Source: Clostridia bacterium (GTDB taxonomy: Bacteria > Bacillota > Clostridia > Oscillospirales > Acutalibacteraceae). Taken from it: a stretch of DNA of 33,235 bases. Location of the stretch: positions 1 through 33,235 of the forward strand of contig JAFSYP010000072.1 in assembly GCA_017449935.1 (NCBI GenBank). Reading direction: 5' to 3'. The notes under the pieces are model-generated. The model saw nothing but the letters and a program-made list of their open reading frames with translations. It did not search any database and was not told the origin of the DNA. This document shows positions 1,846 through 33,051 of this stretch, piece by piece (position 1 is the stretch's first letter; each line of letters starts with the position of its first letter). The translations under genes were made by a program, and so were the position numbers.

Positions 1846-1849
1846 ACGT

Positions 1850-7506: not shown

Positions 7507-10500
7507 TCACGGCAGGACGACGCCCCAACCGCCCGCAAGGAAGCGCTTGAGCAAGATCACGTCTGCCAGAGTCAGTACGCCGTCGCTGTCCACATCAGCA
7601 TTCAGGATGTCCGGGTCGGCGTCCCAGCCGCCGACGAGCGCACGCGCCATCAGTACGGCGTCCTTGAGATCGACCTGACCGTCGCCGCTCGCGTCGCCGC
7701 TGATGCGCAGATTGATTTTGAGCGAAGCGTTCTGTACCGTCAGCGGTACAGTTTGCAGCAAGGCGTTCCGCGCGGCGGTCGGCTGGAAGCGCAGTGTGAT
7801 CGGCGTTGTAATATTGCCCTGCTCGATTTCGTTTACGGTGAAGGTAAAAACGAGGATCGTGCCGGTTTCGGTATGACTTTCGGTCGCCAGCGCGTCGTCC
7901 CAGAGAATGCCGAACGGGATGACGGTATTTGCGCCGCTGAACAATGTGCTGCCGCTTTGCAGCATGCCCACTGCCTGAACGTCCGTCAGCGTAAGATATG
8001 CAGGGTCATAATCGAGGGAAAGCTGCAAGCCGACAAGTCCCGTATTTTTAGTCACGTCCGCTGTGACCCGGACCGTTTCTCCCGGGTGCACCGCCGCGGC
8101 GGGCACCGTCAACTGCAGCGCCGCTTCACGCGCGATCTCGATCGGCACATCTGTCGACCGGATCGAGACGGCTTCCGCCCCATCCACATCGCATGCGCTG
8201 ACGCCTTCGCCGGAAATCGAAACGATCGTACTGCCCGCCGTCGCGTCCGGCAGGATCGTGAAGGTAAGCTCTGCCTGCGCCGCATCCGCACCGGGAAGCG
8301 TGCGCCAGTACAGCGTGTCATTGCCGCGTATTTCCGGATCCGGCAGCGCCTCGCACCGCGCCGTCTCGAACCGCAGCATATTCTTGTCATAGTCCAGATG
8401 TATATCCAACTCCGTCAGGGCGTCGATGTTTTGAAGCTGTGCATGTATCGTTACGCTCTGCTCACGACGGCCTGCGGCGCCTTCCGCGGTACAGATCGGC
8501 GTCGGCAGCGTTTCCGTATAGTCCGCGTCATAGCTGTCGCCGCAGACGCAGGTGTAGCGGGTAAAACCTTCATGCAGATATCCGGGCGGCGTGACGACGG
8601 CGGTATAGTCATGCACGTGCCCGCTGTGATCTGTACAGACTGTATATCGAAAAGAGCGAATGTCGCCGATTGTCTGCTGCGTGAGGCTGTTCGCCGTACT
8701 GCTGCAGATCGTCAGATCGTCCGGGCATTTGGCAAATACTTCCGCCCCAAACGCCGCGTCATGCGGCACATGTACTGTGCGCAGCGTGTTGCCCAGCAGC
8801 CAACTTTCAATAGTGCGAACGGAATCGGGCAGGATCAAGGTCCGTAGACTCGCTTCGGAAATGTACGGATAATAACCGAAACCGCCGTTTTGATATGCTT
8901 CAAGTCTGCTTGCCATAAAACCTTCAGTCAGAATATTCCGCAGCGACAGCCGGTCGAAGCATTCCAGTCCTCCGTAGGTTCTTTCGGTATCGTCCAGGAT
9001 CGTCGTCACGGGCCTGCCGGCGATTTCGCTCGGAATGGTAAGCGTCTGTGTTCCGAAATCAAACGCCGACAGATACGGAGAAGAATAATTGCCCGCCAAA
9101 CCGTTGCACAGGAAGTCAAGGTCGCAGCCTGTGATGATGACGCCGTCCGGGTTGGAATAATAATCATAATACATCGGATCGGTCGTATAGTAAAACGGCG
9201 CGGCGTTTTCCTGCAGCGGCGTCAGGTCAAAACTCATTTGGAAGTTTATATCAGCGCTTTCCTGCGGGCTGTAAGGCGACTGTCCTTCGTTCCAAATGGT
9301 TACCGGGACTTCATAGACCACGCCGGCACGCAGCGTGAACGTGATTTGCGAAAGATCGTATCCGGCGTTTGTGTATACAGGATCGCCGAGCGCGTCCGGC
9401 GCTTCCGATTCCTCAAGGACGCCGTTCGAGTTTGTATCCGTGAAGGCGCCTTCTGTGCAGATCGGTCTGTAAGCAGACGACCCGTAACAACCGTTCTGCG
9501 TCCCGTTCAGGATCACGCGTCCGTTTTGCAGCGACTCCGGAACACTGTTTTGAATACCGCACGCATACAGCAGATCGCCGATCTGGACCATGCCGTAATA
9601 GTTTGCGGGTGCGTTAAAACAGATATTGAGCTTTGCTTCACAGTCACAGGGCGCCTTGAACACGATCGTGCGCACAGGTCCGGAATAACCGGGCTGCGCC
9701 TGATCCAAATAAGAACTGTACAGCACGTTCGGATTTTCTGCGTCGACCCCATAATTGCAGAACATCATCTGACGAGTGTTCGGATCAAGGGAGACCGGAG
9801 TTTGCAGATTCATAGCCCAATCATACGCCGCCTGTTCCGCGTCGCTTATGTATGGATAGTTGTTGGCGTACCTGCTGCGGTCATACTGCATGTGCAGATC
9901 CGGCAACCAGATATTCGGGTAAAGCGAAAACTGCGAACCATAGTCATACCGGCATAGGTCATACATCAACGTGGAAAAGAGCAGTCCGTTCGGTTGACTG
10001 CCGCCTTCCATGCGGGAAGATACGCCGAAATGAAACGACGAAACAGAGGTGTCGCCGGACGCAAAAGACTGACAGGGCGATGCGAGCGGATGCGACCAAT
10101 AGGTCGTGGGGTTTTCGGAAAGCATCCAGAACTCCGTTAGTCGCACGCGCTCCGGATATTCCTCCCAAAACTCTTCCCAGTCGTACCAGGTTGTTGTGAA
10201 ATCATTAAACCAAAGCATCCCGCCGTCCGGTGAGGAAAAGTCATCATTCAGTACCGCGGAGCACCAGTTCTCCCAACCTTCCTGTGTACCGTAATACGTT
10301 TCCGCGCCTTCTGCGGTCAGCCACATCGAACCGTCAGGCGAATAGACCGTGACCGGTGTGTCTCCCGCTCCGTACTGTATCCAACTGCCGTTGTAATATC
10401 CATCGCGGTCGACCCACACTTCTCCGTTCGGCGAGGCAAGCGCACACAAGGGATACCTGCGTGCCCACGCTGCGCCTGCCGGCAGCAGCATACTGCAAAG

Positions 10501-10551
10501 CAGCGCCGCGGCAAGTAAAACGGATAAATAGGTTTTGCCTGCTTTTTTCAT
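7507..10551 (-). CDS. Secreted cohesin-dockerin protein 1 (two cohesin-like domains, LRR region)
   Basis: The 1014-residue protein has a signal peptide (residues 1-30, MKKAGKTYLSVLLAAALLCS...). Next comes a large Trp/Tyr-rich extracellular region (31-365) and a calcium-loop-like motif DTNSNGVLEESE near 370. A BspA-like leucine-rich stretch follows (about 500-620, LRTLILPDSVRTIES), then one Cys-containing HxC-type linker repeat (about 640-685), two cohesin-like domains (about 690-808 and 809-950) and a dockerin (951-1014). Both dockerin calcium loops are intact (DASGDGQVD and DVDSDGVLT), and the tail is GGWGVVLP. Carrying cohesins and a dockerin in one chain, it can in principle link to neighbours at both ends. 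It is the last gene of the minus-strand operon starting near 14.2 kb. GGAGGG precedes the ATG by six bases. Confidence 0.93.
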   Translation of the reverse strand: MKKAGKTYLSVLLAAALLCSMLLPAGAAWARRYPLCALASPNGEVWVDRDGYYNGSWIQYGAGDTPVTVYSPDGSMWLTAEGAETYYGTQEGWENWCSAVLNDDFSSPDGGMLWFNDFTTTWYDWEEFWEEYPERVRLTEFWMLSENPTTYWSHPLASPCQSFASGDTSVSSFHFGVSSRMEGGSQPNGLLFSTLMYDLCRYDYGSQFSLYPNIWLPDLHMQYDRSRYANNYPYISDAEQAAYDWAMNLQTPVSLDPNTRQMMFCNYGVDAENPNVLYSSYLDQAQPGYSGPVRTIVFKAPCDCEAKLNICFNAPANYYGMVQIGDLLYACGIQNSVPESLQNGRVILNGTQNGCYGSSAYRPICTEGAFTDTNSNGVLEESEAPDALGDPVYTNAGYDLSQITFTLRAGVVYEVPVTIWNEGQSPYSPQESADINFQMSFDLTPLQENAAPFYYTTDPMYYDYYSNPDGVIITGCDLDFLCNGLAGNYSSPYLSAFDFGTQTLTIPSEIAGRPVTTILDDTERTYGGLECFDRLSLRNILTEGFMASRLEAYQNGGFGYYPYISEASLRTLILPDSVRTIESWLLGNTLRTVHVPHDAAFGAEVFAKCPDDLTICSSTANSLTQQTIGDIRSFRYTVCTDHSGHVHDYTAVVTPPGYLHEGFTRYTCVCGDSYDADYTETLPTPICTAEGAAGRREQSVTIHAQLQNIDALTELDIHLDYDKNMLRFETARCEALPDPEIRGNDTLYWRTLPGADAAQAELTFTILPDATAGSTIVSISGEGVSACDVDGAEAVSIRSTDVPIEIAREAALQLTVPAAAVHPGETVRVTADVTKNTGLVGLQLSLDYDPAYLTLTDVQAVGMLQSGSTLFSGANTVIPFGILWDDALATESHTETGTILVFTFTVNEIEQGNITTPITLRFQPTAARNALLQTVPLTVQNASLKINLRISGDASGDGQVDLKDAVLMARALVGGWDADPDILNADVDSDGVLTLADVILLKRFLAGGWGVVLP

Positions 10552-10648
10552 AACGATCCCTCCGTCTATTTTTCTATTGATATCATTTTCAGTTTTCGGA
10601 ACACTGCGGGATAAACAAAAGATCCAAAATCAGACGGCGTTTTCCGTT

Positions 10649-12235
10649 TTACCGTGCCTCGCGCAATTCGCGGATCTGCCGAACGAGAGAGGGCAAGTTT
10701 TTCCAAAACTGCCGATGCCAGGCAAACGGATTTGACACGCCCTGTGTTTTGAAGGAATCAAACTGCGAAACGTCTTCGTTCCAGGAAAAGCCGTTCAGCG
10801 TCTCAATGCCAAAGTAGAATATACTTCCGGAAAGCTGCGTGAAATCGGGGTCGATGTACAGGACATTACATCTGCCGGACGGGTACATGGAGGAATTGTT
10901 GTCGTACATGATCAGGATGTGGTTGCCCTGCGCGTCCGTATAAGCGCCGGTAAGCAGTACGCCGTGCACGCCGCCGATGCCGTCCGAAAGATTGCCTGTG
11001 AGGATCGTTTTGAGCGGGTGCGATTCGCCGTAGATCTCCAGATAAACCGGCGTGCCCTGTTCGAGCGTGCGGTACATCGCCTGCAGCTGCGCGGTGTATT
11101 CTTTGCCGCCGGGATTGATCGCCACATGGTTGACCAAATGGCAGGCGACCGCCTGATTGTTATAGTAGTTGATCGTGCTCTGCACCAGATCGTCCGGCTC
11201 GAGTTCGGCGACGCACGATACGCCTTGCGGCGAGAGCAGATCCAGTTTGCCGTAATGCTGCAGCAGAACGGTGATCGGGAAGCCGCAGCACGAACCGATG
11301 AAGATCTGCGTCGGCCAAAACAGCGTCATATACATGCAGCCGACGGCAGCCAGAGGCGCAAACGGCGAGAGCGCGAACGTACCGAACCAGTTTGTGAGAA
11401 ACCGCAGGAAATGGGAGCGCGTATAAAGGTACCCGTCGACGTCCGCATTGAACACGGAGTCACTGTTCAGGAAGGAAAACACCTCAGTGCGGTCGATCCC
11501 GATCTTGCACCAAATGGGGGTGAAGATATACTGCTTTCCTGCCTCAGCCGCAATATCCGTCAGGTCCGAATCATGCGTCAGGTCTTTGCCCTCCGGGATA
11601 TTCCGGGGATCATAATAGACTTTCTCGCCGTCCGCCGATTGCCAGCCGACGAGGATGCGGTGATCGTCGGACTGGAGAAAACTGTATCGGCGCGGCAGCC
11701 GGATGACGTCTCCGTCACGCAGCAGCCTTTCGATCGTCATGCCGTCGATCTGAAAGAGGGCCCGGGCGTGGCTCTTGGGCGGGACGGGCGACACGTCGAC
11801 CACGCGGAAACCGTAGGCGGCGCCGGCATAGTCGGTTTGCAACAGAAGCGAAAAGCGGTTGCCGCGCACGCGCACGGCGGCGCCGGAGAGTTCATCGCCC
11901 GCATAGCATCCCTGCATCTGACCGTCCGCATCATAGATCGTCAGCGTGTCGCCGTCTGTTTCGTAGAAGCCGTTCTCATAAAACTTCCGCACATATGTTT
12001 CGGGCGTGTCTTCCGTAATGGTACAATAGTACTGTTGCGGGTGGAAGTACGTATCCGCGGAAAAGGTAATGTACAAAGCGTCCGCATCGCCGGGGTAGAC
12101 ATATTCCCACGTTTGCGAGGTGTTGTTTGCGTACGCATGGGTGCTCTGCGGGTAGACGTCCTGCGCCGCCGGCGAAAAAACGAGGCTGCACAGCACGAGC
12201 GCCGCCGTAAGTACGACTGCAATATATTTTTTCAT
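10649..12235 (-). CDS. Secreted CUB-like plus C39-like cysteine peptidase protein
   Basis: The 528-residue protein has a signal peptide (MKKYIAVVLTAALVLCSLVF). A CUB-like beta-sandwich (about 33-150) shows TWEYVYPGDADALYITFSAD, DTLTIYDADG and YGFRVVD. A linker domain with an InlB-repeat flavour follows (about 165-250, ILVGWQSADGEKVYY). The C-terminal papain-fold C39-like domain (about 305-480) has the candidate nucleophile in GSCCGFPITV (Cys about 314) and His about 421 in GVHGVLLTGAY, with a following Asp/Asn (MYDNN). C39-type domains cleave peptides, often after double glycine, but inactive relatives exist. GGAGGT fixes the start at 12235. It lies in the operon 14099 to 7507, so a role in processing secreted partners or a peptide signal is possible but unproven. 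Confidence 0.87.
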   Translation of the reverse strand: MKKYIAVVLTAALVLCSLVFSPAAQDVYPQSTHAYANNTSQTWEYVYPGDADALYITFSADTYFHPQQYYCTITEDTPETYVRKFYENGFYETDGDTLTIYDADGQMQGCYAGDELSGAAVRVRGNRFSLLLQTDYAGAAYGFRVVDVSPVPPKSHARALFQIDGMTIERLLRDGDVIRLPRRYSFLQSDDHRILVGWQSADGEKVYYDPRNIPEGKDLTHDSDLTDIAAEAGKQYIFTPIWCKIGIDRTEVFSFLNSDSVFNADVDGYLYTRSHFLRFLTNWFGTFALSPFAPLAAVGCMYMTLFWPTQIFIGSCCGFPITVLLQHYGKLDLLSPQGVSCVAELEPDDLVQSTINYYNNQAVACHLVNHVAINPGGKEYTAQLQAMYRTLEQGTPVYLEIYGESHPLKTILTGNLSDGIGGVHGVLLTGAYTDAQGNHILIMYDNNSSMYPSGRCNVLYIDPDFTQLSGSIFYFGIETLNGFSWNEDVSQFDSFKTQGVSNPFAWHRQFWKNLPSLVRQIRELREAR

Positions 12236-12270
12236 GACCATACCTCCAAGATTCTGTATTTCTTTCGGTC

Positions 12271-13272
12271 TCAATAATGCCGCGCGCCGCAGGCACAATA
12301 TTGGTGCGTGCCGGTTACCCTCCAGAAGAACAGGACAAAGCAATAAACAAAAGAGCGGACGGTGTCGCGGTTGAACACGAGCAGAACAGCAAGCGGGAAA
12401 TGGTTCAACTTATGGCACATGCAGGTACAGTCGTCATTCGTCTGCGGGGGTTCAGAATCATTGGTCCATTTGGCGCCGCAGTAAACGCAGGCCAGCGGGC
12501 TGTCCGGATCTCCCAAGTTGCGGGTCCATCTGTGGGCGTCGGGATCGGGCGGCAGGACTTCGGTCGAATAGACTTCGCCGCACGGACACAGCGCGGATTT
12601 ATACCCGGATTCTATGCACGTGGGGGCCTGCTCGACGTAATAATAAACGTGTGTGTGCGTTTCGCCCATCGGAAGAAAGGTATATCGCATCTTGGCGGCA
12701 TAGTTTTCCGCAGCGCTGTCGGGCGATGCGGCGATCCGAAAATCATAGCCGTCGTACGTGTATTCGAGGCGGATGGCGTCGTCCGCGATCGTTGTGACCG
12801 AATCGGGAAACACGATACAGCTTTGGTAAGGGGCGTTCATACTGCAGCTGCCGATCGTCTGCGTGCCGTCCGGGATTACATAGATTTTTCTCCACAGCGA
12901 AGGAAACGCGACTGCCGTTTTGCCGTCCATAGTATACAGCGCGCCGTTGCGCACGGTGAACCACGGGTTGTCGTCGTCCACGGAGAATTCGCGGACCCAA
13001 GAATCGGCATTTTTACCGTAGAACACGGCGCCGTTCAGTACGTCCGGCGTCAGCGCTATTCCGCCCAGCGTTTTCGGTACATATCCGCCCTTTGCACCGT
13101 ACCACGCATCCCACTCCACGTCACGCAGCACATCGCCGTCCGGCGTATGCTCGATCCTGTATCGGAAGCCGTTTTCGATCTCATAGGGCGTTTCTTCCGC
13201 GTGCACGCAGAACATCGTGAGAAATACTATACATGCAGCCATGAAACAAGCTGCGCTCTTTTTCATTTTCAT
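12271..13272 (-). CDS. BspA-like secreted protein with C-terminal CxCGxxHY anchoring-type tail
   Basis: The 333-residue protein begins with a signal peptide (MKMKKSAACFMAACIVFLTM). A BspA/LRR_5-like region (about 90-190, including IYVIPDGTQTIGS and CIVFPDSVTTIAD) precedes a Cys-rich repeat (about 215-265, APTCIESGYKSALCPCGEVY). The C-terminal tail of about 50 residues has CTCMCHK, then a hydrophobic segment, and ends CACGARHY. I recall this Cys-rich/hydrophobic/CxCGxxHY tail at the very end of many clostridial surface proteins, where it behaves like an uncharacterised sorting signal. GGAGGA precedes the start. It lies 23 bases after the upstream gene and 35 before the C39-like gene, so it is in the operon. 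Confidence 0.85.
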   Translation of the reverse strand: MKMKKSAACFMAACIVFLTMFCVHAEETPYEIENGFRYRIEHTPDGDVLRDVEWDAWYGAKGGYVPKTLGGIALTPDVLNGAVFYGKNADSWVREFSVDDDNPWFTVRNGALYTMDGKTAVAFPSLWRKIYVIPDGTQTIGSCSMNAPYQSCIVFPDSVTTIADDAIRLEYTYDGYDFRIAASPDSAAENYAAKMRYTFLPMGETHTHVYYYVEQAPTCIESGYKSALCPCGEVYSTEVLPPDPDAHRWTRNLGDPDSPLACVYCGAKWTNDSEPPQTNDDCTCMCHKLNHFPLAVLLVFNRDTVRSFVYCFVLFFWRVTGTHQYCACGARHY

Positions 13273-13295
13273 GTTTATACTCCTCCTTTTTTCGG

Positions 13296-14099
13296 TCATT
13301 CGTACATGATGTAATCCAGAAGATTGAAGACGTCCTTCGGATTGCGGAACAGTTCACGATCCAAATCGTATCCGTAGGCTTTCAGGGAATCACTGACGTC
13401 GCGCCGAAAGCGCGGCTCCAGCGGGATCAAGATTATGCGCATCACAAAGAAGGCGAAGATGGGTGACATATAGAAGGAAAACAGCGTGTCGGGAAGGCTG
13501 CTTATCCAATGGCAGATGCGCCTGGCACCGTCCGGCATTTCTAAGTCGTAACTCATCCGCTGAGGCATACCGTCGATCGAGGCGAGCTTATCTCTGTCAT
13601 TATGTTTGGTGCCTTCAATATACTTTTGCGCGTTGACGGACCGGTCGACGCTATTGTAGAGCAGACCTTCGGGGATCGACAGGCTGTATGTGTAAATGCT
13701 GTGCAGAATATGGTTTTTTATGTAACCCACGTCGTACAGCGGGGCGCCGATCCGGCCGTCCTTGTTCAGCACCGATACGGTCAGCACGCCTGTTTCGGCG
13801 TCGTACGCCGTCGGCTGCAGCAAGAACTCAGCAATACGGACCGCGTTCATATCAACGAAGAATGTCAGCTTTTTGCCGAAGTCGGCACAGTCGAGAGACA
13901 TCGCGTTCTCCGCCCCCATCCATGCGGGTGTGAAATCCAGCGTCATTTCGCTGACCGTATCGCCCTGCGCTTTTGTGACCGTGATCGACGGCCGGTTCAA
14001 TTCGATCTGCGCGTCCTCCGCAGCCGCGGGCATGATGAACAACGTGGTCAGCATGGCGATACTCAGAAGGATCGCCGTTAGTCTTTTTAGGCTTTTCAT
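13296..14099 (-). CDS. Secreted/membrane protein of unknown function, first gene of the operon
   Basis: The 267-residue protein has a signal peptide (MKSLKRLTAILLSIAMLTTL, cleavage after PAAA). An extracellular beta-rich domain (about 30-210) is followed by a hydrophobic segment around 215-235 (SFYMSPIFAFFVMRIILIPL) and a charged C-terminal tail ending LLDYIMYE. It would be anchored with a short cytoplasmic tail. AAAGGA fixes the start at 14099. The longer frame from 14159 has no signal. The gene is promoter-proximal in the minus-strand operon and follows an approximately 115-base leader. No known domain is recognised. Confidence 0.84.
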   Translation of the reverse strand: MKSLKRLTAILLSIAMLTTLFIMPAAAEDAQIELNRPSITVTKAQGDTVSEMTLDFTPAWMGAENAMSLDCADFGKKLTFFVDMNAVRIAEFLLQPTAYDAETGVLTVSVLNKDGRIGAPLYDVGYIKNHILHSIYTYSLSIPEGLLYNSVDRSVNAQKYIEGTKHNDRDKLASIDGMPQRMSYDLEMPDGARRICHWISSLPDTLFSFYMSPIFAFFVMRIILIPLEPRFRRDVSDSLKAYGYDLDRELFRNPKDVFNLLDYIMYE

Positions 14100-15809: not shown

Positions 15810-16787
15810 TCAGGCGTACCGGATGGAGAAACAGTGGGATCGCAGCGCCGCGGTGCCGTATGGGCGGTAAAGGTTATACAACGTGCGGAACGTATTGCCG
15901 CTCATGGTCGTGTCGCCCACACGGATGCTTGCCACATACCCCACATCGCCTCGTGCGCCGTCGTGGCTGACGATCTCCAGCCACTGCGACGGATCGCCGG
16001 ACAGTATAATGGGCTTTTCGGGATGCGACGCGTTGTAGCGCAAAACCATGGACCGCAGCCCTTTGGCCGTGATGGCGCTGGCGGACACGCTGACCGTTTC
16101 CGGACTGTCTGCGCCGCCCGTCAGGTACGGCAGTTCCGTGCCCCAAACGCTCCGACTGTCAGTGGTCTTGCCGGCGGAACCGGCAAAGAACACGGCGTTG
16201 ACGGCTTCGCCCGCATAGGACATGTACTGTCCCAACACGCTCCTGACCGCGCTGCGTACGGCGGCGGACAGCCTGCATCTTGCTGCAGCGGAACAAGACA
16301 CTTCGCCGGAAGTGAGCGCGTAGTTTTTTGCCTTGAGGAGCGAGTATACAGCCACAGCCTGTGCCTTGTACGCTTCCGCACTGACCGTGCTGCCTCCGAT
16401 CTCCTGCTGCACCGCGCGGACCAGGAAGTCCTCCGTGTCCCGTGTTATTCCGTTGTAGGTCACGCTGGCAGGCGGAGTTTCACGCTCCAGAGAAACGCCG
16501 GGATAGTAATGCAGAAGAATTCGGTCATAACTCCGGCCCTGTTGGGCGTATGCAATAGCGCCGAGCTGGCTCATGCCCACGCCGTGCCCTTTGCCGTACA
16601 CCGTGAATGTGAACATGCCGCAGTTTGGTTTCAGACACGGCAAAAACCGGCGTACGACGGCGATCGCCTTTGCCGCGGAGTCAACCACAGCCGCGTCGTC
16701 CCGCGTACTGCTGCAGGCAAAGCAGAGCGGCGTAAACGTGCACAACAGCAGTACCGCCGTAAGGATAATTGCAAGCCGTTTTTTCAT
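15810..16787 (-). CDS. Secreted SpoIID/LytB-family protein with permuted domain order
   Basis: The 325-residue protein has a signal sequence (MKKRLAIILTAVLLLCTFTP). SpoIID enzymes are lytic transglycosylases acting on stem-peptide-stripped peptidoglycan. The usual order is a block like LxGVVxxEMxxxxxxEALKAQAVAARTY first and GHGVGMSQxGAxxxAxxGxxYxxIL.HYY near the end. Here GHGVGMSQLGAIAYAQQG and ILLHYYPG come at 67-97, then LVRAVQQEIGGSTVSAEAYK (122-141, with the likely catalytic Glu129). The chain ends with the strand that would normally precede GHGVGMSQ. All conserved pieces are present but rotated, so this looks like a circular permutation. GGGAGG lies nine bases before ATG 16787. It is first in the operon with the lipase. 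Confidence 0.88.
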   Translation of the reverse strand: MKKRLAIILTAVLLLCTFTPLCFACSSTRDDAAVVDSAAKAIAVVRRFLPCLKPNCGMFTFTVYGKGHGVGMSQLGAIAYAQQGRSYDRILLHYYPGVSLERETPPASVTYNGITRDTEDFLVRAVQQEIGGSTVSAEAYKAQAVAVYSLLKAKNYALTSGEVSCSAAARCRLSAAVRSAVRSVLGQYMSYAGEAVNAVFFAGSAGKTTDSRSVWGTELPYLTGGADSPETVSVSASAITAKGLRSMVLRYNASHPEKPIILSGDPSQWLEIVSHDGARGDVGYVASIRVGDTTMSGNTFRTLYNLYRPYGTAALRSHCFSIRYA

Positions 16788-24734: not shown

Positions 24735-24799
24735 TTTACTCCGGAAACCGGTCGGTTCACTCCCGCCGGATTGCGGCCGCAGGCAAAAAGGTGTACAAC
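24735..24799 (+). promoter_or_regulatory. LytTR-type tandem operator and promoter D (24.8-33 kb operon)
   Basis: TTTACTCCG (24735-24743), a 12-bp spacer and TTCACTCCC (24756-24764) are 21 bp apart. They are followed after 29 bp by TACAAC (24794-24799) as a weak -10. The geometry is identical to operators A-C. The predicted start of transcription lies about 30 bases before the start codon at 24837. Confidence 0.55.
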
Positions 24800-24836
24800 G
24801 GAAATGAACCAAAAAATGAAGAAGGGGGAAACGACG

Positions 24837-27800
24837 ATGACAAACAGAAAGCAAATCATCAAACGCCTGTTCGGGTTGCTCATGGCCTGCGTGTTTCTGT
24901 TTTCGGGCGTGTTCGGGATGGACGGCGTGTGGTTGACGACGTTCCTGCGCGCATCGGCGACGGACGACCTTACGTTCACTGTGCCGGAGACGATTTATCT
25001 CCAGCCGTGCGTCGGCGGCAGTACGCATATGCAGTATTATCTGAACGTCAATCCTGACGGCTCGGTGCCGCAGGGGTACAGCACACAGGGCAGCGTATAC
25101 TTCTCGAAGCCGTCCGCAACGCAGGTGCAGATCGTATGCGGCAATCCGGGCGTTACACTGTCGACCGGAACGGGGACGAACACGGTCAGCGCGACGATCG
25201 GCGGACAACTGCAGTCGTCTGTGCCTTCCGGCACGACGCAGCTGCTGACGTGGACGGCGACGTACACGGAGAACGGACGGCAAAAGCAGGTGCAGACGTA
25301 TTCCGTCTTATATGCGCCTGCGGAGGATCCGGCCGGCGCCATTGCCGCGGCCAACGCATACAAAAGCGGCGCGAACGTGTATGCGTCGTGCTCCACGATG
25401 ATCTACGGCGCGCAGACCATCAGCGCCGGCCCGACAACGCTCAATCTGAGCGGCGATGTGTGCGGCAGCGTGACGATCGACGGCAGGGGGAAATACGTGT
25501 ATCCGCTGCCGTGTCACACCTGTACGCCGCAGATGTATGCGGGCGCACAGCCGCCGATGACGTCAAATCTGCTCAGATCGGTGGACAACAATACGGCGAG
25601 CGGTACGGCGTACGGGTTCGTGACGACCGACCATACGCGCGATATGTTCGTTGCGGGCGGTATCGGAAAGATCGGCTACGACGTCTCCCGCGTGAACAAG
25701 ATCGGGCATATCCCGAATTTCTACATTCATTCCTTTTTGAACGGCGCGGACTGCGACGAGGGCTTTTCCAGAGCGGACGACTTTTCGGAAAAGGCGTACT
25801 ACTTTATTTCTGGCAGTTCTGCGGCCGATACGAGCGCGACGTACGCACAGACGCAGTACTGGTCGGGGAATTACAGGACGCAGAGCGTCGTCTCTGTATC
25901 GTCCCCGAACGTGAGCGGTATTGCGCTGAACGGCGGCTACAAAACGCTGTACAGCGCCATAACGCGCAGTTGGAAAGTGACGTCGACCTTGTCCGGCTCC
26001 GAACGTGCGCAGGCGACCGCCGCCGCGGCGTGTGAGTTTTACGGCATCAACAAGAGCGGTGTGCGTGCGCTGTATCTGCACGAGCTGTCGCAGGCGCGGC
26101 AGTGCGGCGCGGATACGCAGGCGTGGACGACATATCAGAATCAGATGCGTTCCGCTGCAGCGTATCTCGGCACGCCCATGAATACCGAGTCGTTTAATAT
26201 GTCCGCTTTGACGAGCGCGGCGCAGGCCGTGGCGAACAGCAGTTATGTTTATCTGACGCTGGCGCCGAACGGCGGCACATGGCAGAGCGGCAGCACTTCC
26301 GCGCAGGTCGCCAGACAGACCGCGGGCAGCACATACGCTCTGCCGACCAATCTGACCAGGAGCGGCTATACGCTCGCGGGCTGGCAGAAAGCGGACGGCA
26401 GCACAGTCAGCGGTACATATACGTTCGGCACGGCGGATGAAACGCTGACGGCGCAGTGGACGGTGAACACATTTACGCTCACGCTTGATCCGAACGGCGG
26501 CGCGTTTGCGGACGGCAGCACGGCCAATCGAATCGTAACGAAGCCCTACGGCAGCGCCTATACGCTCCCGACGGATCTTCAAAAGGCCGGCTTTTCCTTT
26601 GCGGGCTGGCAGACGGCTGCCGGCGGTACGGTCGGCGCCTGCTATACCTTCGACGCCGGAAATGAAACGCTGACGGCGAAGTGGGGTGCGGCGGACTATA
26701 CCGTGACCGTTCACAAGGACGAGGGACTGTGGCTGCCCTATTCCGGAACGCCGCTGGCCGATTTTGCCAAAGAAACAAAAACATATTACGGGACGGCAGG
26801 CGGCGTCGTTACGCTGCCGACCTACGGATGCAGCGGCGGCGGATTGAACGCCTATGTGCGATTGAACGGTTCCGGGACGTCGACGGTCGTCGGTTCCTAT
26901 ACGTTCGGCACACAGAACGAAACGCTCTATTCTCAATGGGGCAGCCGCAACGCGCTGATGCTGAGCGCTGGCGGCGGAAGGTTCGCCGACAGTGCGTACA
27001 CCCACTCCGCGTCACAGCGCATTCTTCTCTATGACGACGATTATTACGGCATGGTCACGACGTACAACGGCACGGCCTGCACGATGTTCCGGATGCCCGA
27101 CGCGTCCAACCTGAGCCGCGACGGTTACAGCTTCAGCGGTTGGACGCTCCAGAACGGCAGCACGGGCGCCTTGCTGTCGAACGGCATGTACTACGTCTTC
27201 GATCCGAACACGGTCGGCGTTTCCGAAGCGATCGCACAGTGGACGCGCAACCGCTTCACGCTGATCCTGTCGGGCTTCGCCGGCGTCACATCCGGCTCCG
27301 ACTGGGAGCAGTACGCCGTGCAGACGAACCGCATCGAGATCACACAGGACGCCGGTTCGGTCATCACACTCCCGACCGCCGCGGACGTTTATAATCCCGG
27401 CAACACGTTCCTGGGCTGGTTCTATCTGAATGAAAGCGACAGCGCCGGCGGCAGAACGACATTCACCCTGACGCAGGACACCTGCCTGTATGCGCGCTGG
27501 ACGCGGAACACCTACACGCTCACGCTCGATTTGAACGGCGGATACACCGAGGTGAGCAGACCGGGCTACACATACCCGAACCTTTACAGAGACCGGACCG
27601 TTATAACCGAATCGCAGCAATACGGATACACAGTCCATCTCAGCAGTCTGCACGGCGAGATCTATCCGAAGGAAGGCTACGCCTTTGTCGGATGGCAGCC
27701 GAGCAGCGGCAGCTGGGTCGGTTCCGTTCAGATGGAGGAGAACACCTACGGCGCGCCCAGCCGCGGCTGGTACACGTTCGGCATCGGCGACGAAACGCTG

Positions 27801-29393
27801 GTCGCCCAGTATGAAACGGTCGACTATACGCTCACGTTCGACACGGGCGGCGGCGAGATGCTGGACAGCATGGTCTATACCGTCGAGTCGACCGATACCC
27901 TGCCCGCGGCCGTGAAGACCGGATATACGTTCGACGGATGGAAATGGATACCGGCGAGCGGAACGTACGTTGATCCGAATTACGCCTGCTGGCAGCCGAC
28001 GTCGATCTATCCCGCGCACACCGTTCTGACAGGGCAATACGGCTCCGTTACGCTGACGGCGCAGTGGACGATCGACGTGCATACGGTCACGTTCGATCCT
28101 GCGGGCGGCACGTGGCCGGACGACAACACCACGGCCGCGTACACGTCGACCGGCAGCATCGGCGACGCGCTGATCCTGCCCGACGAACCGGAGAAAGAGG
28201 GCTATTCCTTCGTGGGCTGGCAGCTCTCCGACGGCAGCACAGGCACATTTGACAGCAGCACGAATCAGTATGTGTACGGCACGACCGACGACACGCTGAC
28301 GGCACAGTGGACTGCGAACACATACACGGTCGCATACGACGGCAACGGCGCGACAGGCGGCGTCACGGCGGATTCGACACACACCTACGACACAGCGCAG
28401 ACGCTGACCGCCAACGGCTTCGAGCGCGCGTTCGCCGTGACGTATAACTACAACTACGAGAACGCGATCAACACCACCGATGCGGCAACGGCATCGTTCA
28501 ACGGCTGGAACGACGCGGCGGACGGCTCCGGTACAGGCTACGCGGACGAAGAGAGCGTCCTCAACCTGACGAGCACGGACGGCGAAACGGTCACGCTGTA
28601 CGCGCAGTGGACGGACGGCAGCGTAACGCTTCCGAAACCGTCGCGGCCGGGCTATACGTTCGACGGTTGGTTCACGGATACGGACTTTGCGACTTTGGTC
28701 GGCATGGGCTACGCGTCCTACACGCCCGGCGGGGAGATCACGCTGTATGCCAAGTGGCATGAAAACGGGATGCTGCGGCTGAAGTACGATACTTCGCCCG
28801 GCGGCCGTCCGCTCACACCCGGCGCGACCGTGACGGTCACGGCGGAGATGTGCAGCAATCCCGGCCTGATTTCGCTGATGCTGGATCTGCATTATGATAC
28901 GACGGCGCTGGAGCTGATACAGGTCAACGATCTCCAGCTCTTCGGTACGAACTGCACGTTCTTCCCGCATCCTAATCTGAACGCCGAGCCGTACCGCTGC
29001 ATCTGGTCGGACGATACGGCGCCGCAGAACCACACGGAGATCGGCGACATGGTCGAGTATACCTTCCGCGTGCGCACCACGGCGCAGATCGGACCGAGCA
29101 CAGTCTGGCTGTCCTACGACCCGGACAACACGTTAGATTATCAAATGAATCCGGTCGAGCTGACCACGCAGAGCGTCGATCTGCCGATCTGCGCGATGCG
29201 CGGAGACGTCAATGCGGACCTTGTGATCAGTCTTCATGATCTGCTGACGTTGACCTGGTACTTCCAGGATCCCGCATCGGTCACGATCGCTGCGATCAAC
29301 GCAGACATTGACACAGACGGCGACGTCGATGCGGACGACCAGACGATGCTTTCACATTACTTTGTCGGCGGCTATGGAGTAATACTGCCGTAG
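24837..29393 (+). CDS. Secreted cohesin-dockerin protein 3 with about ten InlB-type repeats
   Basis: The 1518-residue protein has an N-terminal signal segment (MTNRKQIIKRLFGLLMACVF, cleaved after ASA near 40). A novel extracellular domain (about 41-465) contains THMQYYLNVNPDGS and a Ser/Thr/Tyr-rich core. About ten Listeria/Bacteroides (InlB B-type) repeats follow (about 469-1305), each of the pattern TLTLDxNGG, GYTxxGW, LTAQW. Then come one cohesin (about 1310-1452) and a dockerin (1453-1518). The first dockerin loop is abnormal (DVNADLVIS, Gly replaced), the second is normal (DIDTDGDVD), and the tail is GGYGVILP. The repeats make a long stalk. GGGGG precedes the ATG at 24837. Earlier in-frame ATGs at 24804 and 24816 lack a good signal. 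It is the first gene of a four-gene operon. Confidence 0.92.
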   Translation: MTNRKQIIKRLFGLLMACVFLFSGVFGMDGVWLTTFLRASATDDLTFTVPETIYLQPCVGGSTHMQYYLNVNPDGSVPQGYSTQGSVYFSKPSATQVQIVCGNPGVTLSTGTGTNTVSATIGGQLQSSVPSGTTQLLTWTATYTENGRQKQVQTYSVLYAPAEDPAGAIAAANAYKSGANVYASCSTMIYGAQTISAGPTTLNLSGDVCGSVTIDGRGKYVYPLPCHTCTPQMYAGAQPPMTSNLLRSVDNNTASGTAYGFVTTDHTRDMFVAGGIGKIGYDVSRVNKIGHIPNFYIHSFLNGADCDEGFSRADDFSEKAYYFISGSSAADTSATYAQTQYWSGNYRTQSVVSVSSPNVSGIALNGGYKTLYSAITRSWKVTSTLSGSERAQATAAAACEFYGINKSGVRALYLHELSQARQCGADTQAWTTYQNQMRSAAAYLGTPMNTESFNMSALTSAAQAVANSSYVYLTLAPNGGTWQSGSTSAQVARQTAGSTYALPTNLTRSGYTLAGWQKADGSTVSGTYTFGTADETLTAQWTVNTFTLTLDPNGGAFADGSTANRIVTKPYGSAYTLPTDLQKAGFSFAGWQTAAGGTVGACYTFDAGNETLTAKWGAADYTVTVHKDEGLWLPYSGTPLADFAKETKTYYGTAGGVVTLPTYGCSGGGLNAYVRLNGSGTSTVVGSYTFGTQNETLYSQWGSRNALMLSAGGGRFADSAYTHSASQRILLYDDDYYGMVTTYNGTACTMFRMPDASNLSRDGYSFSGWTLQNGSTGALLSNGMYYVFDPNTVGVSEAIAQWTRNRFTLILSGFAGVTSGSDWEQYAVQTNRIEITQDAGSVITLPTAADVYNPGNTFLGWFYLNESDSAGGRTTFTLTQDTCLYARWTRNTYTLTLDLNGGYTEVSRPGYTYPNLYRDRTVITESQQYGYTVHLSSLHGEIYPKEGYAFVGWQPSSGSWVGSVQMEENTYGAPSRGWYTFGIGDETLVAQYETVDYTLTFDTGGGEMLDSMVYTVESTDTLPAAVKTGYTFDGWKWIPASGTYVDPNYACWQPTSIYPAHTVLTGQYGSVTLTAQWTIDVHTVTFDPAGGTWPDDNTTAAYTSTGSIGDALILPDEPEKEGYSFVGWQLSDGSTGTFDSSTNQYVYGTTDDTLTAQWTANTYTVAYDGNGATGGVTADSTHTYDTAQTLTANGFERAFAVTYNYNYENAINTTDAATASFNGWNDAADGSGTGYADEESVLNLTSTDGETVTLYAQWTDGSVTLPKPSRPGYTFDGWFTDTDFATLVGMGYASYTPGGEITLYAKWHENGMLRLKYDTSPGGRPLTPGATVTVTAEMCSNPGLISLMLDLHYDTTALELIQVNDLQLFGTNCTFFPHPNLNAEPYRCIWSDDTAPQNHTEIGDMVEYTFRVRTTAQIGPSTVWLSYDPDNTLDYQMNPVELTTQSVDLPICAMRGDVNADLVISLHDLLTLTWYFQDPASVTIAAINADIDTDGDVDADDQTMLSHYFVGGYGVILP

Positions 29394-29441
29394 AGATAGC
29401 GACCATTCCAAATCAAACATTTTTTAAAGGAGGAAATGAAA

Positions 29442-30137
29442 ATGAAAACCATGAAAAAAGCTATGACGATCCTGTTCGCCGCAATCCTTACCTTTGCCCT
29501 GCTGATCCCCGCGCACGCCCTGGACGGCACGCTTGCCGTCACGAGTATTGCTTCCGCACGCGCCGGCGATACGGTCACGGTGACCGTGTCACTGCAGAAC
29601 AACCCCGGCCTGTACACCGCGTTGGTGGGCGTTACTTACGATACGGCGGCGCTCGATCTGGTGTCCGTCGCGGACTGCGGTCTGTTCGGCGCCTCCGCCG
29701 ACACTATGACGGCGGGCGGCAACCTGGATATGATCCCGTACCGTGTCCTTTGGATGGACAACGTCGGCTCGCTGGTTTCTGCGAGCGGCGACCTGCTGAC
29801 CATCACATTCAAGGTGGCGGACGACGCGCAGCCCGGCACGTACAGCTTTGCCGTGACCTGCGATGCGAACAACACGCTGGACGCAAACATCGATACGTAT
29901 GACCTCGGCACGGCAAACGGCAGCGTCACGGTCGTGCGTATGCCTGGCGACGCGGACGGCAACGGCCAGATCACGCTGCGCGACGCCATTCTGATCTCGC
30001 GCTGGCTTGCCGGCGGCTTTAACATCACGCTCGATCTTTCCAGCGCGGATGTGAACGGCGACGGCATCGTCAATCTGATGGACGTCGTGCTGATCAAGCG
30101 CTATCTGGTCGGCGGCTGGGGCGTCACGCTGCAGTAA
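29442..30137 (+). CDS. Minimal secreted cohesin-dockerin protein 4
   Basis: This 231-residue protein is little more than a linker. It has a signal peptide (MKTMKKAMTILFAAILTFAL, cleaved near AHA), one cohesin (about 26-165, with DTVTVTVSLQNNPGLYTALV) and a dockerin (about 168-231). The two intact calcium loops are DADGNGQIT and DVNGDGIVN, and the tail is GGWGVTLQ. With one binding module of each kind and nothing else, it is an ideal chain-extending adaptor if its dockerin binds the same cohesin class. The ATG at 29442 is eight bases after GGAGG; the ATG at 29436 is too close. It lies 48 bases after the previous gene in the operon. Confidence 0.95.
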   Translation: MKTMKKAMTILFAAILTFALLIPAHALDGTLAVTSIASARAGDTVTVTVSLQNNPGLYTALVGVTYDTAALDLVSVADCGLFGASADTMTAGGNLDMIPYRVLWMDNVGSLVSASGDLLTITFKVADDAQPGTYSFAVTCDANNTLDANIDTYDLGTANGSVTVVRMPGDADGNGQITLRDAILISRWLAGGFNITLDLSSADVNGDGIVNLMDVVLIKRYLVGGWGVTLQ

Positions 30138-30241: not shown

Positions 30242-32350
30242 ATGAAAGCAAAAAAAAGACGCCAACGGTGGCTCAGCGTTCTGGTATGCATGGCCATGCT
30301 TGCCGCAATGACCGGAACGGCGGACGCGTGGATTGTTTCGCAGAACCGGTTCGGAGAACAATGGGCGAGCGTCAAACTGAACGGCGTTGTGGATGCGAAC
30401 GGCGGTTTTGCGATCTCGGCGGACGGACAGAACTGGAAGCATCACCTGAGTATCGCAGAGATCTTTATGCCGAACCCTTATCAGAACCAGATGAACGGCG
30501 GTTACAGCGATCCATACGGGGCCTATATGTGTAATCTGCCGGTGGTCTCCTTCGATCCGAACGACCTTCTCATGAACGGAAACATGACGTGTGCGCCGGG
30601 CACACACATACCGGACTATTTTTACAATCTTCCGGTCACGACCTGTTTCACGCAGGAAAACGATCCGAATATCTACGCGCAAGTCGTGAACAACGTTGGG
30701 ATCGAGTACGGTTTGATATATGTCAAGCGGGACGTCTGGTCGACGTATGCCGCGACCGGGATACAGGACCCAATGTACGGCGAATTGATCCACATAGATT
30801 CGCCGGTGTCGGACGGCATTCATTTTCTGATAGATCTGCGGTATCTTCAGGTTGCCGCTTTGACGAACGGATCGCTGTGGGGCGGTCACGTTATGCCCGT
30901 TTTGGGTGATTCATACGCGCCGCTGCATGTTCCGGACAACACGTTGCCGGGCGTCTGGCAGGACCAGAACGTCGACGGCGTCTGCGACCAGAACGAGATC
31001 CAGAGCAACATCGCGTTCGGCAGCTTTATGCAGCAGTATCCAACGACGTTCGTGCTGGATGAATCGCAGCTCGATGTGAGCGCGATCCCCCTGAACGACG
31101 TGATCCCGATCCCGATCCTGATGTGGAAAGAGGGACAGTCGGCCGGCAATCAAATGATGTTCACGGAATTGCATTTGAATTGCTTTATTGGATCCAATCG
31201 GTATTTGCCTGTTCCGATCGACGTCGGGACGGTCGTGACGAATACGGGGATGCCGATTTTCGGACACACGGGACTGACCGGGAGCGGCCCGCTCAGTTTA
31301 TGGACGTACCGGGTTACGGACATGGACGGGCGCAACCCGATGTTGCTTCAGCTGTATCAGGACAGCGGCTTCATGCTGGAGGAAGCGTCGCGGACGCTGT
31401 TTTTACCGCACACGATCGACGGAATGTCCATACAGGCGCTCGGCGCCGGGCTTTTCGGATTTTTTGGATACAATCCGAATTATTTCAGCCCGTCGCTGCC
31501 GCTGCAAACGATCGTTGTGCCCGACAGCGTACAATATCTGGAGGATTCGCTGTTCCGGCCCGAGGACGTCGCGATCCCGCGTCTGCATCTGCCTGCCGGC
31601 GTGCAGTTCGATCGACCGTTCCAAACCGGACAGGTCTCGACGGTCTGCACCTGCACGTATGACGCCGCGACGGATGCATACTGTCAGGCGAACAACATTA
31701 CCTATGAAGTGTGCGCCGGCCATACGCCGCATGCGCTGACGCCTCCCGCACCGGCGCTGACCGCGACAGGCGGCAGCGGTACGCCCGGATCGCTGATCCC
31801 CGTCACCGTCCGTCTGGAGAACAATCCCGGACTTATCGCGCTGACGATGCAGGCGAACTATGACACGACGGCGCTCGCGCTGGAAAGGGTCGACGATCTC
31901 GGCCTGTTCGGCAGCGGCACGTTTACGTCGGGCGGCGATCTGACACAGTCGCCGTTTACAGTCAGCTGGTCGGACGATCTGGCGACGCAGGATCATACGG
32001 CGGACGGTGATCTCGTCACCTTCTGGTTCCGTATCCTGCCTGCCGCGGCGGCAGGCACGACGACGGTCACGGTGTCGGATGTGGCAGGCTCGACCTGTGA
32101 CGCGGCGCTGCAGGTCCATTCGCCGCAGTCGGGCGACGCGCAGATCACGGTTTCCGCCATGGCGGGCGACGTCAACGGCGACGGCGTGCTCGACGCGCAG
32201 GACCTGCTTTGGCTGACGTGGTATCTGATCGATCCGTCGTCCGTTCCGGCAGCCGCGACAATCAATCTGGACGCGGACGGCAACGGTACGGTCGATCAAA
32301 ACGATCGGGCGCTGCTGGCGCAGCGGATCGTTGACAATTTCGGAAGCTGA
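30242..32350 (+). CDS. Secreted cohesin-dockerin protein 5, paralog of protein 1
   Basis: The 702-residue protein has a signal peptide (residues 1-29, ending GTADA). Its large N-terminal region (30-400) resembles the corresponding part of protein 1, sharing a calcium-loop-like motif (DQNVDGVCDQNEIQ) and a following PILMWKEGQS segment (VTIWNEGQS in protein 1). A short BspA-like leucine-rich region follows (about 405-475, LQTIVVPDSVQYLED), then one cohesin (about 500-640) and a dockerin (641-702). The loops are DVNGDGVLD and NLDADGNGTVD; it ends VDNFGS and lacks the GGWGVxL tail. The dockerin has the same inserted linker as protein 3 (DPSSVPAAAT-type). AAGGAG is about nine bases before the ATG. 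Confidence 0.92.
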   Translation: MKAKKRRQRWLSVLVCMAMLAAMTGTADAWIVSQNRFGEQWASVKLNGVVDANGGFAISADGQNWKHHLSIAEIFMPNPYQNQMNGGYSDPYGAYMCNLPVVSFDPNDLLMNGNMTCAPGTHIPDYFYNLPVTTCFTQENDPNIYAQVVNNVGIEYGLIYVKRDVWSTYAATGIQDPMYGELIHIDSPVSDGIHFLIDLRYLQVAALTNGSLWGGHVMPVLGDSYAPLHVPDNTLPGVWQDQNVDGVCDQNEIQSNIAFGSFMQQYPTTFVLDESQLDVSAIPLNDVIPIPILMWKEGQSAGNQMMFTELHLNCFIGSNRYLPVPIDVGTVVTNTGMPIFGHTGLTGSGPLSLWTYRVTDMDGRNPMLLQLYQDSGFMLEEASRTLFLPHTIDGMSIQALGAGLFGFFGYNPNYFSPSLPLQTIVVPDSVQYLEDSLFRPEDVAIPRLHLPAGVQFDRPFQTGQVSTVCTCTYDAATDAYCQANNITYEVCAGHTPHALTPPAPALTATGGSGTPGSLIPVTVRLENNPGLIALTMQANYDTTALALERVDDLGLFGSGTFTSGGDLTQSPFTVSWSDDLATQDHTADGDLVTFWFRILPAAAAGTTTVTVSDVAGSTCDAALQVHSPQSGDAQITVSAMAGDVNGDGVLDAQDLLWLTWYLIDPSSVPAAATINLDADGNGTVDQNDRALLAQRIVDNFGS

Positions 32351-32418
32351 CGGAAACAGAATGCGGCAATCCCATTCTATCACGGCTTTCAAGCCTTCAG
32401 GGAAGGAGCGGTCGGACG

Positions 32419-33051
32419 ATGCGGCGACGCAAGTTTAACGCCATATATATAATATGTATACTCTCTGCGCTTCTGTCGGCCGGCTTTTCGGCGTCTGCCG
32501 CATCCGGGACGATCTCGGCGGACGTCGTGTCCGTAAAGCCCGGCAGGACGGCGGACGTCGCCGTGCGCATCGGGAACAACCCCGGCGTTGCCGCGCTGCT
32601 GCTGAACATAGACTATGATCCGTCCGTCCTCACGCTGACAGGCGTTGACAACGGCGAAGTGTTTGCGGACGACACGACGATATTCGGCAAGGATACGGCG
32701 AAAGTCCCGTATACGCTGATCTGGGAAGACGGCTTGTCTGCCGAAAACCATACGGCGGACGGCGTGCTGGCGACGCTGCATTTTGCGGTGAATCCGGACG
32801 CGCCCGAAGGCGACTGCGCGATCACGCCGGAAATAGACGAAGGGTCTACCTTCGACGTCGACCTGAACAAGGTCGTGTTCCGGATACAGAGCGGCTGCGT
32901 GCGTGTGGAACATGCGCCGGACTCGCCCCGTACGGCGATCCTGATCTCCGGCGGCGCCGTTGCGGCTGTCGCGGGATTTACGGTCGCGGGTACGCTGTTT
33001 GTCCGGAAAAAGAGAAAGGACGCGCAGACCGACTGCGTGAGCGCGGATTAA
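32419..33051 (+). CDS. Membrane-anchored cohesin (putative cell-surface receptor)
   Basis: The 210-residue protein has a signal peptide (about 1-28, MRRRKFNAIYIICILSALLS), a single cohesin (about 30-165, TADVAVRIGNNPGVAALLLN and FDVDLNKVVFRI) and a C-terminal membrane helix (about 172-195, ILISGGAVAAVAGFTVAGTL) followed by RKKRK. There is no dockerin. It is therefore the only cohesin here that is fixed to the cell, a logical anchor for dockerins of proteins 1-5. This mirrors anchoring scaffoldins of cellulosomes, although those usually use sortase or SLH domains. It is the last gene of the operon; AAGGAG is about 11 bases upstream of the start. Confidence 0.93.
   Translation: MRRRKFNAIYIICILSALLSAGFSASAASGTISADVVSVKPGRTADVAVRIGNNPGVAALLLNIDYDPSVLTLTGVDNGEVFADDTTIFGKDTAKVPYTLIWEDGLSAENHTADGVLATLHFAVNPDAPEGDCAITPEIDEGSTFDVDLNKVVFRIQSGCVRVEHAPDSPRTAILISGGAVAAVAGFTVAGTLFVRKKRKDAQTDCVSAD

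Follow-up and report, generated by a model that had tools for sequence, protein, structure and literature searches.

The presence of cohesin and dockerin modules is usually taken to indicate machinery that degrades plant fibre or glycans, and surveys select for hydrolases that carry a dockerin. We analysed a 33,235-bp stretch of DNA from a Clostridia bacterium (hereafter the window), which is the entire contig C30 of a draft genome (2.95 Mb in 129 contigs, 87% complete), and in which five chains combine cohesin and dockerin modules next to a cohesin with a membrane-like helix. By definition, these chains are monovalent adaptor scaffoldins with large cargo, accompanied by a membrane-anchoring scaffoldin. 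From the domain architecture, signal-like starts and membrane-like helices called from sequence, the genome inventory and recurrence in relatives, we consider it probable, with modest confidence, that the genes of the window specify part of a surface network, anchored and poor in enzymes, in which cohesin–dockerin chains would act as bivalent connectors.

The nearest architecture among described systems is that of Paenibacillus guangzhouensis, in which 28 of 35 cohesin proteins are single dockerin–cohesin chains, many with N-terminal cargo, alongside surface anchors (PMC11557425). Its cargo is often a glycoside hydrolase (GH) of family GH2, GH20, GH29, GH31 or GH43, whereas here one of 16 chains has a weak GH-like domain; its anchors are of the SLH type and one dockerin lies outside the cohesin chains, compared with three membrane-like-helix anchors and 21 cohesin-less dockerin chains here (PMC11557425). 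Lachnoclostridium sp. MSJ-17, presumed to be non-cellulolytic, has single cohesins held by a C-terminal membrane helix and many dockerins, but only four cohesin proteins (PMC11557425). In Ruminococcus flavefaciens, ScaC-type adaptors join one cohesin to one dockerin in 5–11 copies per strain, and two FD-1 chains have two cohesins and a C-terminal dockerin; these adaptors serve a cellulosome with many dockerin-borne GHs, unlike the chains described here, which carry large adhesin-like cargo in a genome where no cellulosome was found (PMC4081043). The group 4 dockerins of strain FD-1 are found on many leucine-rich repeat (LRR) and uncharacterized proteins, for which the authors suggest a role in cell-surface structuring, but, unlike here, they belong to a GH-rich cellulosome species (PMC2930009). 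Amy4 (Sca1) of Ruminococcus bromii places cargo, cohesin and dockerin on one chain, and its authors' model allows self-aggregation through its own modules, which lowers the novelty originally claimed for the present locus; Amy4 is a single such protein with amylase cargo, whereas 16 chains are present here with no GH13 match on them (PMC5814915). Finally, cohesin–dockerin proteins of anaerobic methanotrophic (ANME) archaea and their sulfate-reducing partners have been discussed in a context other than cellulose degradation, as adhesion or extracellular complexes, but these belong to other phyla, have ABC-transporter binding proteins and S-layer domains as cargo, and include scaffoldin-like proteins with up to five cohesins (PMC9012536, PMC10553843).

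Set against the classical complexes, we found neither the multi-cohesin scaffoldin of a cellulosome (19 cohesins lie on 19 chains of the 87% complete assembly) nor its dockerin-borne plant cell wall GHs, nor the dockerin-borne GH13 amylases of the R. bromii amylosome; both enzyme searches used Pfam on 35 of 37 dockerin chains, all except C1_31343 and the window frame 17273-17581, with C33_110000 scanned without its 5′ part. The multi-cohesin scaffoldins and dockerin-borne mucin-glycan carbohydrate-active enzymes of the Limousia mucinolysome were likewise not found, a single weak GH123-like domain being the only match in that direction. The feature of a non-SLH anchoring scaffoldin, a cohesin followed by a C-terminal transmembrane helix or a sorting signal, is found in the form of a helix, by hydropathy, in 32419-33051 and in two more genes. 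The literature searched, which covered few subscription papers, contained no description of a genome dominated by cohesin–dockerin adhesin-like chains. Two features seem new: 16 of the 19 cohesins of one genome are on dockerin-bearing chains almost free of recognized enzymes, and a linker-free module recurs beside cohesin-only genes in the order.

Pfam places a cohesin (PF00963) and a C-terminal dockerin (PF00404) on one chain in all five window proteins with a signal-like start, as the original prediction had stated, and the cohesin stands directly before the dockerin in each. We assigned signal peptides and the membrane helix by visual inspection and hydropathy, and the scores of our own cohesin and dockerin profiles, built from this genome and its congeners, are partly circular where high. 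The proteins and modules are listed below with lengths in amino acids (aa) and, where they differ, the start of the listed open reading frame (ORF).

7507-10551, minus strand: predicted exported protein, 1014 aa, with N-terminal cargo without a family, a divergent cohesin-like domain, a cohesin and a C-terminal dockerin (Pfam 57.2 bits for the cohesin, 27.8 bits for the dockerin).
8116-8484, minus strand: divergent cohesin-like domain of 7507-10551, residues 690-812 (hhalign 96%).
7738-8115, minus strand: cohesin of 7507-10551 (own profile 45.9 bits, Pfam 57.2 bits).
7537-7698, minus strand: dockerin of 7507-10551 (own profile 32.1 bits).
18005-21487, plus strand (ORF listed from 17633): predicted exported protein, 1160 aa, with two cargo-domain repeats, InlB-like repeats, a cohesin and a C-terminal dockerin (Pfam 48.6 and 41.9 bits, respectively).
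20888-21247, plus strand: cohesin of the 17633 chain (own profile 53 bits).
21293-21457, plus strand: dockerin of the 17633 chain (own profile 48 bits).
24837-29393, plus strand (ORF listed from 24771): predicted exported protein, 1518 aa, with N-terminal cargo, seven Listeria-Bacteroides (InlB-type) repeats, a cohesin and a C-terminal dockerin of divergent code (Pfam).
28818-29105, plus strand: cohesin of the 24771 chain, the weakest of the set (own profile 23.7 bits; 24.2 bits with neighbours).
29202-29363, plus strand: dockerin of the 24771 chain (own profile 35.5 bits).
29436-30137, plus strand: minimal predicted exported cohesin–dockerin protein, 233 aa, cargo-free (Pfam 54.9 bits for the cohesin, 43.9 bits for the dockerin).
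29538-29933, plus strand: cohesin of the minimal protein (own profile 56.1 bits).
29943-30107, plus strand: dockerin of the minimal protein, abutting the cohesin directly (own profile 47.5 bits).
30242-32350, plus strand: predicted exported protein, 702 aa, with cargo without a family, a cohesin and a C-terminal dockerin of divergent code (Pfam 37.7 and 36.2 bits, respectively).
31757-32098, plus strand: cohesin of 30242-32350 (own profile 41.8 bits).
32162-32329, plus strand: dockerin of 30242-32350 (own profile 41.1 bits).
32419-33051, plus strand: cohesin with a C-terminal membrane-like helix, a putative anchor, 210 aa (Pfam cohesin 53.3 bits, hydropathy 1.89).
32932-33003, plus strand: transmembrane-like helix of the putative anchor, limits approximate, followed by a basic tail and without an LPXTG motif (most hydrophobic 19 residues at 32935-32991).

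Four of the five chains have one cohesin and one dockerin. The fifth, 7507-10551, has two cohesin-like domains, as had been predicted, one of them divergent: residues 690-812 reached an hhalign probability of 96% against a profile of 76 cohesins, compared with at most 0.9% for 20 shuffles, and were not reported as a cohesin by Pfam. The signal-like starts of the 17633 and 24771 chains lie at ATG 18005 and ATG 24837. Pfam scored the cohesin of the 24771 chain at 20.8 bits (cut-off 24.1; it reached 24.2 bits with neighbours in the own-profile search) and its dockerin at 30.1 bits. The cargo-free linker protein exists as proposed, with a length of 233 aa from 29436 and not 231, and the cohesin of 32419-33051 has the C-terminal hydrophobic stretch expected from the earlier description of a membrane-anchored cohesin, followed by a basic tail. 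When the Protein Data Bank (PDB) was searched with the minimal protein, 24 sequences were returned and every alignment lay on the dockerin part; the 7507-10551 protein returned dockerins and cohesins plus weak unrelated rows. The genes at 24837-29393, 29436-30137, 30242-32350 and 32419-33051 follow one another on the plus strand, separated by 42, 104 and 68 bases, and form an apparent operon whose last gene encodes the cohesin with the membrane helix. Pfam recognized no GH and no LRR among 20 window ORFs scanned; the absence of GHs from the window had been predicted, and of the adhesin-like cargo predicted with it, the InlB-type repeats are present, whereas BspA LRRs are at most short stretches seen by eye. 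The ORF at 23636-24979 was scanned with NCBIfam, without a match, and Rfam at gathering thresholds had no match in the window.

The same architecture extends through the genome. A profile search gave 19 cohesin matches in 19 different chains, several of the frames being cut at contig ends, and 16 of these chains also carry a dockerin, 15 of them linker-free and one (C6) with a 75-residue spacer. The other three are cohesin-only and all end in a hydrophobic stretch without LPXTG; their 19-residue Kyte–Doolittle maxima are 1.89, 3.08 and 2.98, compared with at most 1.50 in the 15 linker-free chains. Dockerin matches number 37, of which 16 are with a cohesin and 21 without; three fall below the Pfam cut-off, including the dockerin of cohesin chain C10 (21.9 bits). 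None of the chains in this 87% complete assembly was found to have two canonical cohesins. The locus is not the self-contained unit that had been proposed, as 10 linker-free cohesin–dockerin chains, one cohesin–spacer–dockerin chain, two membrane-helix cohesins and 20 dockerin-only chains are encoded outside the window.

Most of the recognizable cargo is adhesin-like or structural. Among the 16 cohesin-plus-dockerin chains, Pfam found BspA LRRs in C10, C89 and C122 and Listeria-Bacteroides or InlB-type repeats in 24771, 17633, C29_78535, C55 and C122. One chain (C57_15929) carries a papain protease with lectin-like and immunoglobulin-like (Ig-like) domains, another (C29_78535) has a weak GH123-like domain (37.7 bits, cut-off 23.1), and the remaining cargo has no family match. 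The window chains 17633, 7507 and 24771 have paralogues on C29: the cargo of the 17633 chain shares 38% identity with C29_78535 over 565 aa; that of 7507-10551 matches C29_83330 at 26% over 482 aa and, in a congener, L096 at 30% over 674 aa; and the 24771 chain matches C29_85959 at 26% over 183 aa. The N-terminal cargo domain of the 24771 chain also has counterparts in six further chain segments of this genome, at 21–27% identity (alignment A1). Of the 21 dockerin-only chains, 19 were scanned and have LRRs, InlB-type repeats or nothing recognized, as well as two calcineurin-type phosphoesterases, one CHAP, one cyclophilin-like and one below-cut-off PHP domain. A papain with lectin-like and Big_3 domains recurs on a cohesin–dockerin chain in three congeneric genomes (L061:8930-12034, minus strand; L091:3702-7265, plus strand; L097:4117-7671, plus strand). 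The description of the system as enzyme-free is thus nearly right but too strict, in view of the weak GH123-like domain and the papain on cohesin–dockerin chains and a few enzymes on dockerin-only chains, but genome-wide the system is enzyme-poor.

In ten congeneric genomes searched, linker-free cohesin–dockerin chains, cohesin–spacer–dockerin chains and cohesins with a membrane-like helix all recur, with 1–11 cohesins per genome compared with 19 here. Across 44 chains of this genome and its congeners, taken without a gap filter, the cohesin–dockerin gap is 0–7 residues in 36 and 75–81 in eight, with nothing between. The 36 tandems are 198–205 aa long, an evenness that comes partly from their selection by a gap of at most 10 residues. 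An alignment of 32 of them (A3; L089, L099, L116 and L127 left out) shows the first and last Asp of both dockerin calcium loops to be invariant. At least 56 of 394 genomes of the order match at E 1e-15, in a search that scored up to 8 candidates per genome and in which a match may be to the cohesin or the dockerin alone. Pfam found no GH on 20 cohesin–dockerin chains of relatives, so that 35 of 36 scanned chains of this kind (16 from this genome, 20 from relatives) lack a recognized GH. The relatives' chains contain papain (two), carboxypeptidase M14 (one; L220:3166-5382, plus strand), MACPF (one; L226:5455-10437, minus strand), LRR_5 (seven) and a chitobiase C-terminal domain (one; L227); Pfam gave both modules in 18 of the 20, and the cohesins of L229 and L230 were called by our own profile.

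Gene order points to a recurrent pairing of connector and cohesin-only genes. Of the cohesin–dockerin genes, 1 of 15 in this genome, 5 of 21 in congeners and 19 of 41 in loci of the order have a same-strand cohesin-only neighbour no more than 300 bp away, the last proportion not being an unbiased rate because the 36 order regions were hand-picked from search rows. The cohesin-only partner has a hydrophobic C terminus in one of one, four of five and two of 19 cases, respectively. Three partners were scanned with Pfam: that of L228 has three SLH domains (its cohesin called by our own profile only), that of L233 has collagen-like repeats and that of L222 has nothing recognized. The L233 chain (L233:7696-10836, minus strand) adjoins a cohesin–dockerin gene. 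Ten dockerin-only genes also lie directly upstream of a cohesin-only gene, including the C111 pair and its orthologues in four congeners. The pairing is therefore recurrent, but only some of the cases support the partner as an anchor.

In the network that we favour, the C-terminal dockerin of a connector would plug, in a calcium-dependent manner, into a cohesin, and the connector's own cohesin, directly before the dockerin, would offer the next socket. The 32419-33051 product would be a membrane-fixed socket that holds the first connector, and dockerin-only proteins encoded elsewhere in the genome would fill open sockets as end pieces. As the load, where recognized, is mostly adhesin-like or structural (BspA LRRs, InlB-type and Ig-like repeats) with few hydrolases, such a network would serve to present binding modules on the cell surface and not to digest plant fibre. 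We infer the pair binding, its order, the surface location and the calcium dependence, the last from the family. Binding within one chain looks unlikely because there is almost no linker. Head-to-tail polymer growth by repeated addition of connectors is a tentative extension that may well not hold. More doubtful still is the complete picture of a non-covalent surface fibre or mesh, in which linker-free module proteins would run head to tail from cohesin membrane anchors (SLH-borne in one relative), with dockerin-only ends and adhesin repeats in place of enzymes and with the connector/cohesin-only gene pairing recurring in the order.

The binding code of the modules is compatible with such a network in part. 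Arg occupies helix position 18 of the first dockerin repeat in 13 of 15 linker-free chains and 11 of 21 dockerin-only chains of this genome, and these two Arg sets fall in one class of the dockerin tree; helix codes were read from the first repeat only, placed from the first GD of each row. Over the presumed binding face (37 columns chosen from type I complexes), the cohesin of the window anchor is 39% identical to the chain cohesins of its genome, about as close as these are to one another (36%). In the cohesin tree, C111-type anchors (10 rows, support 96/93) and C33-type anchors (6 rows, 100/96) form groups, seven of eight spacer chains form a weaker one (84/69) and the window anchor is not placed. 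Both trees leave out cohesin hits below 40 bits and short and repeated rows, and have few columns and many weak forks.

Several observations weigh against the favoured network. The dockerins of 24771 and 30242 are divergent, with Trp instead of Arg, and are sister to each other (99/96). Within one class of the dockerin tree, cohesin-linked and dockerin-only rows mix, yet they cluster by label more than shuffled rows do, with 12 changes versus a shuffle mean of 27. At the presumed binding face the window anchor is also 42–44% identical to other anchors and 51% to spacer chains, so the 39% is not specific; these face identities are compatible with one shared specificity and do not prove it. Connector cohesins beside C111-type anchors (in the small-genome relatives G001, G006, G007, G008 and G010) are sister to the C111-type anchor cohesins (100/96), and yet their identity to these averages only 22% over the face columns, compared with 28% overall (5 by 10 pairs), which suggests different partners. 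Cohesin specificity is not safely readable from sequence in any case; complex prediction is reported to reach an F1 of 0.9 for cohesin–dockerin pairs in Clostridium perfringens (PMC12997984). Furthermore, with 87% completeness a scaffoldin or partners may be missing from the assembly, 16 of the 19 cohesin-only partners in the order have no anchor recognized by hydropathy and few Pfam scans, and chains with at least two cohesins occur in relatives, with seven in the loci read. Congeners G003 and G007 have one two-cohesin chain each, and in an order-level relative seven cohesins and one dockerin share a chain of classical scaffoldin-like layout (L241:5570-8599, minus strand).

The main rival is that the chains are type-switching adaptors that form no polymer: the dockerin would dock to an anchor or scaffold cohesin, and the chain's own cohesin would take another dockerin class, such as the X-module dockerins of C3, C15, C33 and C79, giving a two-step display like that proposed for ScaC of R. 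flavefaciens. We regard this as less likely than not, although it fits the face divergence just described, and an adaptor role has been published for R. flavefaciens cohesin–dockerin chains (PMC4081043). It also agrees with the two dockerin classes, which separate at a supported branch (97/93) into X-type dockerins (19 rows, those of the spacer chains among them) and all others (63 rows). The load itself is not tied to one class: an N-terminal cargo domain is common to C64 (L056, cohesin–dockerin) and C15 (L075, X-type dockerin without a cohesin) at 48% identity over 498 aa, so the same load rides two docking classes. The congeners G006 and G010 each have two cohesins at E 0.001. In G006, seven of ten dockerin matches were read and the RRY type is that of the connector's own dockerin only; in G010, seven of eight were read and none is of RRY type, the connector's dockerin being only partly readable (a run of N lies inside it, L123) and without a Pfam match. 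The pattern used for reading dockerin types in relatives took the wrong stretch in three rows (G001:C103 and G008:C8 twice). Two readings are left for these genomes, self-assembly or an adaptor that accepts X-type dockerins through its cohesin; the latter is not forced, because no cohesin turned up at E 0.001 in the same-family genomes G011 and G023, which do have dockerins. Their dockerins number 21 and 40, respectively; dockerins without a cohesin have likewise been reported in Ruminococcus albus (PMC4081043). Dockerins thus need no cohesin partner in this family, and we dropped X-type dockerins as proof of a second cohesin specificity. Two further points speak against type switching here: in this genome the resemblance between anchor and chain cohesins is roughly that among the chain cohesins themselves, and 15 linker-free connectors would be many for seven X-class dockerin-only chains (ten if all Arg-less ones are counted).

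It is improbable that the system is a degradative complex in disguise, related to cellulosomes or mucinolysomes, whose unannotated cargo consists of unrecognized enzymes or carbohydrate-binding modules. Large parts of the cargo have no Pfam or NCBIfam family, as such a complex would allow, and R. flavefaciens also has many dockerin chains without an assigned function (PMC2930009). The GH123-like domain, the papain with lectin-like domains in three congeneric genomes, the two phosphoesterases, the chitobiase C-terminal domain and the multi-cohesin chains of relatives, including the one with seven cohesins and a dockerin, would also fit. However, all but one of the scanned cohesin–dockerin chains lack a recognized GH, many cargoes are plainly repeats (LRR, InlB-type, Big_3) and this genome yielded no chain with two canonical cohesins. 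Least likely of all is a decaying or neutral expansion of duplicated surface genes with inherited cohesin and dockerin tails, many unable to bind, which would explain the lone dockerin frame described below, the divergent first cohesin of 7507-10551 and the divergent dockerins of 24771 and 30242, but not the cargo-bearing window frames intact over 700–1500 aa, the invariant calcium-loop Asp residues or the module gap of 0–7 residues in 36 chains across the genus.

Other features of the window flank these genes.

17273-17581, plus strand: lone-dockerin open frame, 102 aa, with the dockerin at 17393-17554 (own profile 50.3 bits).
5002-7464, minus strand: GHKL sensor kinase (5002-6690) and LytTR response regulator (6709-7464), adjoining the 7507 gene (Pfam).
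21520-23642, plus strand: immediately 3′ of the 17633 gene, a LytTR response regulator (21520-22278) followed by a GHKL sensor kinase (22284-23642) (Pfam).

The free dockerin of the original prediction stands as a dockerin match but not as a secreted protein: the 102-aa frame has no export signal, the frames upstream are filled with stops, and it is probably a gene relic. The window, 1.1% of the genome, holds two of the genome's four LytTR matches, for which chance would account about 8 times in 10,000, and across the genus 4 of 32 LytTR matches were placed by eye within about 10 kb of a cohesin; a role of the LytTR–GHKL pairs as regulators of cohesin–dockerin genes is suggestive only. Among the remaining minus-strand genes, 14493-15779 is lipase-like, with a signal-like start, a Pfam Lip_C match of 207.6 bits and no dockerin, and 15810-16796 is SpoIID-like below the cut-off (20.2 bits), with relatives at about 39–40% identity in L093 and L059. 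The protein of 12271-13299 has a signal-like start, a C-terminal cysteine-rich motif and a hydrophobic stretch, and no Pfam or NCBIfam match; that of 10649-12343 (564 aa) has nothing above threshold in either database and, by eye, a possible cysteine-peptidase-like C-terminal part. The G+C content is 39–51% in positions 1-7500 and 50–63% in 7501-33000, the cohesin–dockerin region.

The 19 cohesin and 37 dockerin matches of this genome are almost all on chains without a recognized glycoside hydrolase, many of them adhesin-like. The 233-residue minimal protein offers a small reagent for a direct test of self-assembly. If the proposed binding is true, plug-and-socket modules would also be a route by which an anaerobe builds a protein network at its cell surface.

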